From positions 1 to 36,552 of the forward strand of contig NZ_FOIF01000016.1 of assembly GCF_900111575.1 (NCBI RefSeq): a stretch of DNA of 36,552 bases, read 5' to 3'. Positions 761-36,552 of this stretch are shown in pieces. Every line of letters starts with the position of its first letter. Positions within the stretch are counted from its first letter, which is position 1. The position numbers were made by a program, and so were the translations under genes. The stretch is from Anaerobranca gottschalkii DSM 13577 (lineage in GTDB: Bacteria; Bacillota; Proteinivoracia; Proteinivoracales; Proteinivoracaceae). The notes beneath the pieces are model-generated. The model searched no databases. It was not told where the DNA came from and saw only the letters and a list, made by a program, of their open reading frames with translations.

Positions 761-1264
761 ATGAATAGAGAACGAATAATGAAATTAATTTTAACAGGTT
801 TTTTTATTATATTTTCTTATATCGGTTCCTTGGTTAAGTTTTCTGGTTCTATAGCTTTAGATTCGTTGCCTGCATATTTTTCTGCTATTATTTTAGGACC
901 CCTTTTGGGAGGATTCGTAGGACTTGTTGGCCATCTATTGACAGCTTTAACCAGTGGCTTTCCTATGACTTTGCCTATGCACTTATTTATTTCTGTAATG
1001 ATGTTTATTATTGTTTTTCTATTCTCCATAGCTTATAGGAAAGGGAACTTCTTAGGGATTATCTTAGGAATTATTTTAAATGGCCCTGTTGCTGCAACTT
1101 TATCAGCATATATTTTTGCTAATTTAGTAGATATGTCTATATCTTTTTGGAATTTTATTTCTTTAATAATTGTTCCCTTAACATTAGCCTCTAGTGTTAA
1201 TATTATTTTTGCCCATATTCTCTATAAAGCCATACCTAAAAAGTATTATTCTACTTATTGGTAA
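761..1264 (+). CDS. cblT: ECF transporter substrate-binding (S) subunit, probable alpha-ribazole transporter
   Basis: A 167-residue, very hydrophobic protein with about five to six membrane segments and no ATPase motif, the size of ECF S components. S subunits bind the substrate in the membrane and use a shared ECF energising module, which is not in this window. It is the first gene after the B12 riboswitch and is followed by a PurM-like kinase and cobU. This order matches the cblT-cblS pair known in Listeria and Geobacillus, where CblT is the proposed alpha-ribazole importer. The ATG at 761 is chosen because AAGAAGGGG (745-753) is well spaced to it; a TTG at 755 lies too close. Substrate assignment rests on context and could be another B12 precursor. 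Confidence 0.72.
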   Translation: MNRERIMKLILTGFFIIFSYIGSLVKFSGSIALDSLPAYFSAIILGPLLGGFVGLVGHLLTALTSGFPMTLPMHLFISVMMFIIVFLFSIAYRKGNFLGIILGIILNGPVAATLSAYIFANLVDMSISFWNFISLIIVPLTLASSVNIIFAHILYKAIPKKYYSTYW

Positions 1265-1310
1265 AGTTAGAAGGTTAACGGGTAAATTCATAAAAGAAGG
1301 AAGGATTAAA

Positions 1311-2066
1311 TTGAGGGATTTTATGTTTGAAAAATATAGGGATTTAACTTTTTGTTGGCTGAATAGTAATGAGGCTATTGTAATTTCTTGTGATAGTTGT
1401 GGCGGTGTAGGTGCAAAGGAAAAGGATTATATCAAAGTTTCTCCAGAAGTTGTAGGGTATTATACTACCCAGGTTGCTTTAATGGAAATTTTAGCTGTAA
1501 AAGCACACCCCTTCGCTATTATTAATAACTTGGCTGTGGAGATGGATAGTACAGGTAAAGAAATCCTTAAAGGGATTAACAAAGCATTGGTAGCAGCAGA
1601 ATTAAAAGATAAGGTTTATATAACAGGTAGTACAGAAGAAAACTTTCCTAGTTTACAAACAGCTTTGGGAATAACTGTTTTAGGAAAGGTTAATAAAGAA
1701 AACTGGACTTTACCTAAATCATATAGAGGGGACTTTATAGCTGTAATTGGTATTCCCAAAGTGGGAGAAGAAGTGATAATGGATTTTGGGCAAGAAACTT
1801 TACTTTTAGGAAGATATAAAAATTTACTTAAAAACCCTTATATTAATGAAATACTTCCAGTAGGTTCTAAAGGGATTTTATTTGAGTTACAAGAATTAGC
1901 TCAAAGCAATAACTTATCCTTTAGACTATTAGAAAAAATAACTTTAGACTTAAATAAATCTGCTGGTCCTGCAACCTGTGCTTTAATTACTTTTAATGAA
2001 AAAGATCTTTACCAAGTTAGCAAAGATATTTCATTACCCTTTAATATTATTGGGCAGTTTTGTTAG
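1311..2066 (+). CDS. cblS: Alpha-ribazole kinase, AIR-synthase (PurM)-like fold
   Basis: A 251-residue protein resembling the AIR synthase/ThiL superfamily. Its early region has ISCDSCGGVGAKEKDYIKV, where the D-x-x-G-G-V-G pattern is like the ATP-binding N-terminal part of PurM-like enzymes. A Gly-rich segment near the C-terminus (SAGPATCALITF) also fits. In Geobacillus and Listeria such a protein, CblS, phosphorylates alpha-ribazole to its 5'-phosphate, bypassing CobT; no cobT is visible here. The TTG at 1311 is preferred because AAGAAGGAAGG (1294-1304) sits 6 bases upstream; ATG 1323 is the alternative. The neighbours cblT and cobU support the role. The specific function is inferred from context and family. 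Confidence 0.75.
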   Translation: MRDFMFEKYRDLTFCWLNSNEAIVISCDSCGGVGAKEKDYIKVSPEVVGYYTTQVALMEILAVKAHPFAIINNLAVEMDSTGKEILKGINKALVAAELKDKVYITGSTEENFPSLQTALGITVLGKVNKENWTLPKSYRGDFIAVIGIPKVGEEVIMDFGQETLLLGRYKNLLKNPYINEILPVGSKGILFELQELAQSNNLSFRLLEKITLDLNKSAGPATCALITFNEKDLYQVSKDISLPFNIIGQFC

Positions 2067-33948: not shown

Positions 33949-34180
33949 ATGAAGTCAAAGAATGGGTTGAAAAAGATGCAGATGAATAAAGGGAGTGATT
34001 TAACTTTTCAGATTTACAGGAACAATAGCTAAAGAAGTGTGTTGTAAATAATCTATCTGAATACACAATTAGATTTTATTAAGTGAGTTGCCGAACGTTT
34101 GATAAATTTATTACTTTAACAGAATTAAAAGCTGAAGATATAACAAGAGATTTGATTGATGATTACTATATAGCCCCCTA
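33949..34180 (+). pseudogene. Remnant of a tyrosine recombinase/integrase N-terminus
   Basis: Reading with one frame change gives SDLTF, then a frame with FSDLQEQ (stop) LKKCVVNNLSEYTIRFY (stop) VSCRTFDKFITLTELKAEDI, then TRDLIDDYY. This resembles the SAM-like core-binding domain of phage-integrase-type recombinases, where NLSEHTIxxY, FxKF and ITRxDI recur. In-frame stops near 34026 and 34079, a frameshift and the loss of the whole catalytic domain show it is dead. It stops where the IS3-like element begins, which suggests the element landed inside it. Confidence 0.6.
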
Positions 34181-34238
34181 ATAAATTTGGAGTAAATCCT
34201 TGTATATGCTAAAATTAATAACAGGGGGTAGATAACAT

Positions 34239-34551
34239 ATGAAAAAAAGACAATATAGTGATGAATTTAAAGAGCAACTAATAAAAGAATGTCAGGAAAC
34301 GGGAAATGTAGCGTTAAGTAGCAAGGCGTCATGAAATTTCACCCAACACCATTCATACCTGGATCAGTAAATACCGCAATAGAGGAACCGTAAAATCCTT
34401 ACCCAAAACAAAAGAGAACTGTTATAAAGCAATATAAAAGCAGTTAATAGAAGTAAGTACCGAAAATGATAGATTAAAACGTCTTTTAGCAGAAAAAGAA
34501 CTTGAGCTTGCGATATTGAAGGAGTTGATGGATTATAAAAACCCTCGGTAG
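34239..34551 (+). pseudogene. IS3-family orfA (helix-turn-helix protein), frameshifted
   Basis: The start MKKRQYSDEFKEQLIKECQE and the continuation RRHEISPNTIHTWISKYRN, then a leucine-zipper-like DRLKRLLAEKELELAILKEL, are typical of IS3 OrfA, which binds the element ends. An extra A near 34315-34318 shifts the frame (GCGTTAAGTAGC where GCGTTAGTAGC is expected), and a TAA interrupts the AI-KQLIEVS region near 34429. The ATG follows AGGGGG (34223-34228). Confidence 0.8.
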
Positions 34552-35235
34552 CCGACAAAGTTGCCATTGCCAAGAGGTGGATTGAAAAAGGATATAATCC
34601 TAATAAAGTTTTAAACTCTGTCGGCCTGGCTGCATCCACCTATTATCATAACACTTCGAGCAATACTGGAAAAGTTGATCAAAAAACAAAAAACAGCGTT
34701 GGGCGTAAAATACCGGGATACTCAATGACCAGAACAGGTGAAAAAGTATCAGATGAGCAAGTAAAAAGAGAGAAAGTAACTGCTCCAAATCAACAGTGGC
34801 AGGCAGATGTAAAATACGGCTATATTACTGGTACAGATCAGTTTTTTTCCAGCTATCATTGATAGATGTATTTGACAGAACAATTATCGATTATTATATA
34901 GGATTAAACTGTAAAGCACTAGATGCCTGTAACGTGCTTAAAAACACTATCAGAAAAAGAGGTTTAGTTCCCGGGATGAAAATACCGGTGATAAGAACTG
35001 ACAACGGTCCGCAGTTTACCACTAAAATATTTGCTGAAACCTGTGAGAAGTTAAACATAGAACATGAACGCCTATATTGAATCATTCCACGTTATTTTAG
35101 AAGATGAATGCTATAGTCGTAATGAATTTAGAGATTTCGCTGAAGCTTACCAGGTAATTGCTGAATATATGGACTATTACAATACTCGTCGCATACATAG
35201 CAGTATAAACTATATGGCATATGAAGCGGGCGACC
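34548..35235 (+). pseudogene. IS3-family orfB (DDE transposase), multiply broken
   Basis: Three frames together give an rve-type transposase. Frame one starts VADKVAIAKRWIEKGYNP and reaches QQWQADVKYGYITGTDQFF with the first catalytic Asp. About 45 codons seem deleted after SDEQ, near 34757. One T is missing from the run at 34842-34848, moving to LSLIDVFDRTIIDYYIGL and RTDNGPQF (second Asp). A further deletion near 35063-35070 leads to NAYIESFHVILEDECY (catalytic Glu) and YNTRRIHSSINYM. The catalytic DDE residues are all still present but split over frames. Confidence 0.82.
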
Positions 35236-35238
35236 GCA

Positions 35239-35287
35239 ATGGTGTCAAGGGTGCGAAGCAGGCGCCAGCCCTTGCCCTTGACACCAT
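35239..35287. repeat. GC-rich 13-bp palindrome at the end of the IS3 remnant
   Basis: ATGGTGTCAAGGG (35239-35251) is the exact reverse complement of CCCTTGACACCAT (35275-35287). The loop contains a second CCCTTG, permitting a slipped alternative fold. The surrounding 75 bases are far richer in G+C than anything nearby. Confidence 0.75.
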
Positions 35288-35381
35288 AAGGGAGCCAGCT
35301 AGAATTAATGCAGGGTTGTGGGAAGTTGAAATCTTTAGGATTTGTTTGAATGCTTATGAGGGTTCAAGCCGACTATTACTG

Positions 35382-36170
35382 CTATTTGTTTAAGGAATTG
35401 TGATTCCTGTGAAAAAGGCAACTTAAATCAACTAAATGTTCCAATTTAATTTGATTTATAGCAATTGCAGTAACAAAACTGTTAAGTATTGTAGTTCCAA
35501 GTATAGTCAATTCTTCATTTACATTTATACCTTTTAAGTTAATAGATATAAAGATTGCTATATATATGACGTTTAAATGTGTAATTACTACTTCTCTTTC
35601 AAACTTCCTTGCCTCTTCTTCCCCTTTTAAACCTTTTATCATTATTCTTGATATTATTACACCTACATAACTATTAAGAAGTAGAAATAATGTTAGTGCT
35701 ATATATAGATTAAAATTTATTCCCAAAAAGTGATGTATTGTTTGAGTAGCTAATATATAAAGACCTGAAAGTATAATCATAGTGACTAATGTGGCTATGG
35801 GACTATATAGATATACTAAAAAAATAACTGCTAAGAAAAAAGAAGTTAATGATACAAGCAAGAAAAAGCTATCATTAATTATTATTAATCCCAGTGCAAT
35901 TAAGCAAATAATTATAATACTCAGCACTATTTGCACAGATTTCACCTTTAGATTAAAGTTTAATGTTAACATTACCACTCCAGTTAATCCTAAAAATAAT
36001 AGCATACCTACCATTATATATTTTGGTATAAATAAATCTAATTCACTACTAAAATGCTCAATAAAAATATTGACTTGCTGATAAGCTAGTAAAACCATTC
36101 CAAGACCAAATAAAGTTGAAAAAAAATGCTGTTTTCTACTAAAATATGGGTTGAAATATTTTTTTAACAC
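35382..36170 (-). CDS. Polytopic membrane protein of unknown function
   Basis: A 262-residue protein dominated by about seven or eight hydrophobic segments separated by short loops. One longer cytosolic-looking charged stretch, MIKGLKGEEEARKFEREVV, lies near residue 190. I recognise no family or motif. The start is GTG 36170 (reading leftwards), preceded by a very good AAAGGAGGT (36186-36178 on the minus strand), so it is likely translated. It is the only minus-strand gene in the window and stands alone between a dead IS3 element and a fresh transposase, which suggests accessory or transferred DNA. Its 3' end overlaps by 12 bases the frame running out of the IS3 remnant. Confidence 0.7.
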   Translation of the reverse strand: MLKKYFNPYFSRKQHFFSTLFGLGMVLLAYQQVNIFIEHFSSELDLFIPKYIMVGMLLFLGLTGVVMLTLNFNLKVKSVQIVLSIIIICLIALGLIIINDSFFLLVSLTSFFLAVIFLVYLYSPIATLVTMIILSGLYILATQTIHHFLGINFNLYIALTLFLLLNSYVGVIISRIMIKGLKGEEEARKFEREVVITHLNVIYIAIFISINLKGINVNEELTILGTTILNSFVTAIAINQIKLEHLVDLSCLFHRNHNSLNK

Positions 36171-36224: not shown

Positions 36225-36253
36225 ATATTAAATGAGGAAATTGCATAATTCAA
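36225..36253 (-). promoter_or_regulatory. Possible promoter of the minus-strand membrane protein
   Basis: On the minus strand, TTGAAT (36253-36248), 17 bases, TAATAT (36230-36225), lying about 55 bases before the GTG start. Both boxes differ from consensus. Confidence 0.35.
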
Positions 36254-36289
36254 AGAGGCTGATTTTATTAAATTTATTTAAAGCAAAAA

Positions 36290-36374
36290 AGAGGTTTCAC
36301 CCCAAAATGTCGAATATATTAAGTAGCACCAAAATAATCCGAAAGGAGTGAAACCTCTAAATGTATATTCGACA
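36290..36374 (+). repeat. Two interleaved 11-bp inverted repeats in a transposase leader
   Basis: AGAGGTTTCAC (36290-36300) pairs with GTGAAACCTCT (36348-36358). TGTCGAATATA (36308-36318) pairs with TATATTCGACA (36364-36374). The order A-B-A'-B' is that of a pseudoknot or of two competing hairpins. The ribosome site AAAGGAG (36342-36348), the ATG (36361) and codons 2-5 are within or beside these strands. Confidence 0.85.
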
Positions 36375-36552
36375 AATGAGCATAATTTCCTTTGAAGAAA
36401 TTATAAAATTTCAACAAGAAACTAAGCTAGAAATGATTTTATCGCAATTAGACATTTCTAAAATAGCCTATAGTTTAAGAAAATCTGGTTATTCAAAAGG
36501 CCCAAAAGGTTATGAAGTAACATCAATGATTTATGCTTTAATAGCTATGCAA
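36361..36552 (+). CDS. N-terminus of a DDE-type transposase, cut by the right edge
   Basis: Sixty-four residues are visible, starting MYIRQMSIISFEEIIKFQ, then TKLEMILSQLDISKIAYSL, then GPKGYEVTSMIYALIAMQ. The pattern of a short helical N-terminus, G-P-K-G-Y and then a hydrophobic S-M-I-x-A-L-x-A-M-Q helix is common to IS4/IS5/IS1182-like DDE transposases; I cannot choose the family. AAAGGAG (36342-36348) is 12 bases upstream, with inverted repeats around it. The frame is open to the edge and shows no damage, unlike the neighbouring IS3 element, so it may be an active copy. Confidence 0.72.
   Translation, partial: MYIRQMSIISFEEIIKFQQETKLEMILSQLDISKIAYSLRKSGYSKGPKGYEVTSMIYALIAMQ

Follow-up and report, generated by a model that had tools for sequence, protein, structure and literature searches.

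The conserved mRNA leader of an IS1182-like transposase gene of Anaerobranca gottschalkii probably acts in cis to mask the site at which its own translation begins. From sequence comparison and structure modeling, we put the probability of this reading at roughly 0.7. Arm A of the leader would pair with the Shine-Dalgarno region (arm A'), and arm B, together with a further arm, D, in most relatives, would pair with the start codon region and codons 2 to 5. Because each of the predicted folds would bury the ribosome site or the start codon, the transposase would be made rarely.

Two interlocked repeats at the start of a transposase gene

The window that we analyzed is the entire contig C16, 36,552 nucleotides long, of a genome comprising 110 contigs. 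A preliminary description of this DNA had reported two perfect 11-bp inverted repeats in the order A-B-A'-B' at the ribosome site and start codon of a transposase gene, with A' at the ribosome site and B' on codons 2 to 5. Both repeats are present exactly as described and occupy these positions (Table 1). None of 3,000 dinucleotide-preserving shuffles of the 101-nt segment contained a perfect inverted repeat of 11 bp, and an interleaved pair of repeats of at least 8 bp was equally absent (0/3,000).

If one C-A mismatch is allowed, helix A spans 14 positions (36290-36303/36345-36358) and includes the Shine-Dalgarno GGAG. The CCC at 36301-36303 that continues arm A lies opposite the ribosome-site bases GGA (36345-36347), one position being mismatched. 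The putative small hairpin C, read from the sequence, has a counterpart of the form CCC-GAA-GGG in the relatives L054 and L055. Folding of the window leader gave a z score of -3.2. The pairing of D is mostly lost in this copy, for which duplex energies of -18.0 kcal/mol for A and -16.0 kcal/mol for B+D were calculated, A being somewhat stronger.

Table 1. Positions of the leader, gene and element features in the window
Feature	Sequence	Positions	Strand	Basis or remark
Left terminal inverted repeat	TGAGGAAATTGCATAATT	36233-36250	+	Similarity edge of copies and inverted match in contig C54
A-run		36285-36290	+	Immediately upstream of arm A, the final A of the run doubling as the first base of arm A; kept in the family
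Arm A	AGAGGTTTCAC	36290-36300	+	Repeat search; pairs with A'
Arm B	TGTCGAATATA	36308-36318	+	Repeat search; pairs with B'
Arm D position	TTAAGTAGCA	36319-36328	+	In relatives, pairs just before and over the start codon
Small hairpin C	TCC-GAAA-GGA	36338-36347	+	Read from the sequence; 3' side within the Shine-Dalgarno
Shine-Dalgarno	GGAG	36345-36348	+	Sequence
Arm A'	GTGAAACCTCT	36348-36358	+	Three conserved bases also in arm D' in relatives
Start codon	ATG	36361-36363	+
Transposase reading frame		36361-36552	+	64 codons, then truncated at the contig edge; classed as IS1182-like from full-length relatives
Arm B'	TATATTCGACA	36364-36374	+	Codons 2 to 5 (Y-I-R-Q)
Ser codon of the F-S-F-E motif	TCC	36388-36390	+	Nucleotide-level constraint across the family

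The arms lie inside an IS1182-like element

The similarity between copies of the element in the same genome ends at or just outside position 36233 (query 34, 29, and 21), and the copy on contig C54 carries the same 18 bp, TGAGGAAATTGCATAATT, inverted at its right end. The motif TGAGnnnnTT(G/T)CATA is found at an equal distance in copies of the family. The element therefore has terminal inverted repeats, as members of the IS1182 family do.

The preliminary description had offered end or subterminal binding sites as an alternative role for A and A'. Since arm A begins approximately 40 bp past the end of the terminal repeat, the arms are not the ends of the element, and that part of the proposal is ruled out. 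Its other part stays as a rival, in which the arms would be DNA sites for the transposase or a repressor, co-evolving because one protein reads both. We regard this as very unlikely. The perfect inverted symmetry near the left end and the roughly equal avoidance of G-U and A-C oppositions (see below) would suit such sites. However, the terminal repeat is separate from the arms and unlike them. Moreover, arm length varies among elements and the pairing crosses the start codon in several (L059, L072, L116), which would not be predicted for protein sites. The composition of the loop between D and A' also fits RNA.

The preliminary description took the transposase to be apparently intact; in the window, its frame runs for 64 codons up to the contig end. 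Those 64 codons share 72% identity with the N-terminal part of a 405-amino-acid transposase from an Alkaliphilus metagenome-assembled genome. An N-terminal DUF772 domain (PF05598) and a DDE_Tnp_1 catalytic domain (PF01609) were found in two full-length relatives. Their best match is NF033551 (NCBIfam, IS1182), but as the scores of 191 and 261.9 fall below the cut-off of 270, we call the element IS1182-like rather than filing it as an IS1182 member.

Three left ends and five right ends of the element were identified in this genome, together with a copy that carries an internal deletion. Apart from this copy, contig ends also truncate the others. Where a right end extends to the end of the gene, the encoded C terminus is intact. 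The internally deleted copy lies at 9480-10240 of L009 (contig C54). An older, strongly decayed copy of the leader, 77% identical, is present at 1087-1174 of L009, and contig C54 also contains genes that, judged by eye, resemble a type III CRISPR (Cmr) set. In the window, broken reading frames at 34083-35393, adjoining the element, resemble the remains of another transposase.

Both stems are kept with compensatory changes

We gathered other copies of the leader and tested both stems for covariation, the check proposed in the preliminary description. Both were kept with compensatory changes among 54 to 62 distinct leaders, which bears out the claim that the leader is base paired across the ribosome site and the first codons. 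The alignment used for counting had 62 distinct rows. For helices A and B together, 85.9% of the cells formed standard pairs, compared with at most 49.1% for slid partners, and 54 cells were double changed, against 15.9 in shuffles (0/500). For B+D, the corresponding values were 87.9% paired cells (at most 52.1% for slid partners) and 63 double-changed cells (20.5 in shuffles). Helix A was absent from the model behind the alignment and helices B and D were included, so that the B and D counts lean toward the structure; moreover, the leaders are kin and partly constrained by the protein, so that the comparisons with shuffles overstate their independence.

The same helices were found by alignment-free duplex scans. 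The mean duplex energy of helix A was -13.9 kcal/mol versus -5.0 kcal/mol in shuffled sequences, with the native pairing stronger in all 54 leaders, and that of B+D was -20.6 versus -7.7 kcal/mol (stronger in 53 of 54). Compensation in helix A is exemplified by GACTTC/GAAGTC, GGTTTC/GAAACC and GATTTC/GAAATC, in helix B by TTGTCGAA/TTCGACAA, TTGGAGAA/TTCTCCAA and TGTAGAAG/CTTCTACA, and in helix D by TTAGCGA/TCGCTAA and TTAGTGA/TCACTAA. Mapping of independent changes on a transposase tree yielded approximately 13 compensatory and 1.5 opposite ones over 13 column pairs, a test that comprises few events and in which pairs within one helix are not independent. Shared ancestry alone would not explain such an excess of compensatory changes in the aligned sequences. 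An RNAalifold consensus retained helix B alone, as expected because the helices cross and the set is divergent.

Comparison of the leaders supports the pairings as such, shows them to be conserved and places them over the ribosome site and start codon. Conserved pairing over either of these two sites is what would characterize a transposase mRNA that masks itself. Given conservation and compensation in dozens of elements and the outcome of the 3,000 shuffles, it is hardly credible that the repeats are coincidental or decaying and devoid of function.

Codon choice at the start of the gene

Constraint was also seen at synonymous codons within the coding sequence. The Arg codon of the IRQ motif tracks the leader base, CGA occurring with T in 24 cases to 4 and CGG with C in 7 to 0; these codon changes are silent at the protein level. 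Among 108 conserved codon columns, the two strongest synonymous constraints are on the Ser codon TCC, followed by the Ile codon ATT inside B'. The Ser residue of the F-S-F-E motif is encoded by TCC in 36 of 36 elements (P = 8.5e-21), and TCC accounts for 12% of the Ser codons elsewhere in these genes. We found no clear RNA pairing partner for this constrained codon.

Helices A and D share a strand

In most relatives, a third helix, D/D', extends B/B' through the start codon, giving an average of approximately 19 pairs. Arms A' and D' have three bases in common, and in 27 of 56 leaders all three are complementary to both A and D. Because of this overlap, the A hairpin competes with the full B+D hairpin. 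Geometric reasoning suggests that full A and full B+D would not stack in line simultaneously. The preliminary description had proposed either an H-type pseudoknot or two mutually exclusive hairpins. The second proposal would apply to A against B once B is extended by D, and the first retains its place for A with B alone: here an H-type pseudoknot is feasible, whose third loop of 9 to 13 nt would contain the start codon. A switch between two hairpins is equally possible. The folding programs used do not model crossed helices, so that the step from the helices to a pseudoknot or a switch is our interpretation.

As A and D compete for the three A'/D' bases in most relatives, the RNA of those elements most likely alternates between the A hairpin and the B+D hairpin, or else forms the A+B pseudoknot with D open. 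Both folds appear repressive. It may be that the leader is a two-state RNA switch, in which the A'/D' strand has been selected for its alternative partners A and D and a signal could choose the fold, but we hold this view only tentatively. Candidates for such a signal are the transposase, an antisense RNA, a host factor and transcription itself. If it exists, this switch would set the transposition rate for a large family of elements.

The active strand and the origin of the transcript

The loop between D and A' is composed of 56% A, 29% C, 5% G and 9% T, a composition that would suit a stretch left unpaired in the sense RNA. Depletion is about the same for G-U as for A-C cells, with G-U not favored over A-C, and thus base-pair statistics alone do not single out the sense RNA. 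The composition of the loop and the placement of the arms exactly on the ribosome site and start codon favor the sense mRNA as the active strand.

We also considered that an antisense transcript might be the functional RNA, with arm A and the A-run forming its terminator on the minus strand, and that it would regulate the transposase mRNA in a manner comparable to Asr9 of ISPpu9. At least five A residues adjoin arm A in 50 of 56 distinct leaders, a pattern that on the minus strand looks like a stem arm with a U-run after it; a terminator-like site was scored there on that strand, and A-C mismatches, which would be G-U pairs in the antisense RNA, are no rarer than G-U pairs. Nevertheless, the long-range stem would need a loop of approximately 45 nt, the D-A' loop is A/C rich in the sense strand, and the positions of the arms coincide precisely with the Shine-Dalgarno and start codon in the sense mRNA, making this alternative improbable compared with a self-masking sense leader.

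The A-run was examined as a frameshift slippery site and rejected, as the upstream open reading frame (36232-36351) stops before the gene and is not kept in relatives inspected by eye.

The idea that one of the folds would be restricted to transcripts coming in from outside the element, put forward in the preliminary description, found no support: in a sigma-70 scan, neither the region upstream of A nor that between A and the start codon contained a promoter scoring above shuffles. A read-through gate like those of IS10 and IS50 would place the element's own promoter inside the A-B-D region, such that only transcripts from outside carry A and B and are silenced. Arms A and B indeed lie well upstream of the start, a transcript initiated after D would have an ordinary short leader, and the best internal -10-like sites are concentrated where B meets D. 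However, internal promoter scores are no higher than those of shuffles (means of 3.95 and 3.99, respectively), -10-like letters arise at that junction anyway from complementarity to the start region, and transcription might equally start upstream of A. We consider the gate unlikely, albeit the least so of the alternatives to self-masking by the sense mRNA.

Between the terminal repeat and the A-run, a subset of relatives, including L110, L088, L096 and L160, have a small CCC..GGG hairpin (E), which is weakly supported across the set (Wilcoxon P of approximately 0.01), clear in about 15 of 63 and terminator-like in some (e.g., L110 and L160). Together with the T-runs that follow it in some relatives, it could stop transcripts coming from outside. 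No hairpin E was seen in the window.

Distribution of the leader

The leader, approximately 100 nt long, belongs to IS1182-like transposase genes of the DUF772 plus DDE_Tnp_1 type. A covariance model built from 17 leaders had matches in 41 of 398 sampled Bacillota genomes and, within one class in which such elements are abundant, in 20 of 63 genomes. Arms A and B are separated by a spacer of 3 to 8 nt. Distant relatives, with approximately 29% protein identity, were found on plasmids of Priestia, Enterococcus, Alkalihalophilus and Planococcus. In these, the A-run is retained, arm A ends in CCTCCCC and a matching A' lies near the start; a TAGT(G/C)ACCA-like segment is present in most, and helix B is less clear. 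No Rfam family matched the leader of the window or those of ten relatives. In L133, a c-di-GMP-II riboswitch (1260-1342, minus strand) lies beside a copy of the leader.

Discussion

The conserved leader would represent a concrete, testable brake on transposition for a large and little-studied group of insertion sequences, partly encoded in the transposase codons. We infer that the sense RNA is active, that it lowers translation and that the folds exchange; a signal might open them. Control of translation by a conserved leader whose helices cross and share a strand would be unusual for a mobile element, and the covariance model offers a means to find further elements of this type.

Leaders that hide the ribosome site of a transposase gene are already known from ISPpu9, IS10, IS50 and IS200. 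In the latter three, the structure of the mRNA, or an obstruction at the ribosome site, holds transposase translation down, and the inhibitory hairpins of IS10 and IS50 are tied to read-through transcripts. Those elements belong to other transposase families and have inhibitory hairpins, whereas the leader described here has two crossed helices, with D over the start codon. Hfq is described as acting at the IS10 ribosome site (PMC5006887).

We found no description of this IS1182-like leader in the open-access literature, in which the "Transposase-resistance" candidate RNA motif, listed as present in "several phyla" (PMC2864571), was considered by name. The likeness to that motif is by name, which suggests a structured candidate tied to transposases. 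IS1272, of the IS1182 family, shares the transposase superfamily, as judged from the best match of full-length relatives to NF033551, below its cut-off. In the IS1272 paper, the parts covered treat stem-loops as insertion targets, and a term search of its text returned no account of a transposase mRNA leader (PMC5678879).

There is also a likeness in mechanism to ISPpu9, of the IS110/IS492 family. The 5' untranslated region (UTR) of its transposase mRNA can likewise adopt a fold that covers the ribosome site, and translation increased in mutants in which this fold was weakened, according to the passages covered (PMC8450116). In that element, the transposase is an unrelated DEDD enzyme, the long UTR is under the control of two small RNAs, and the interlocked A-B-A'-B' plan is not described in the same passages (PMC8450116).
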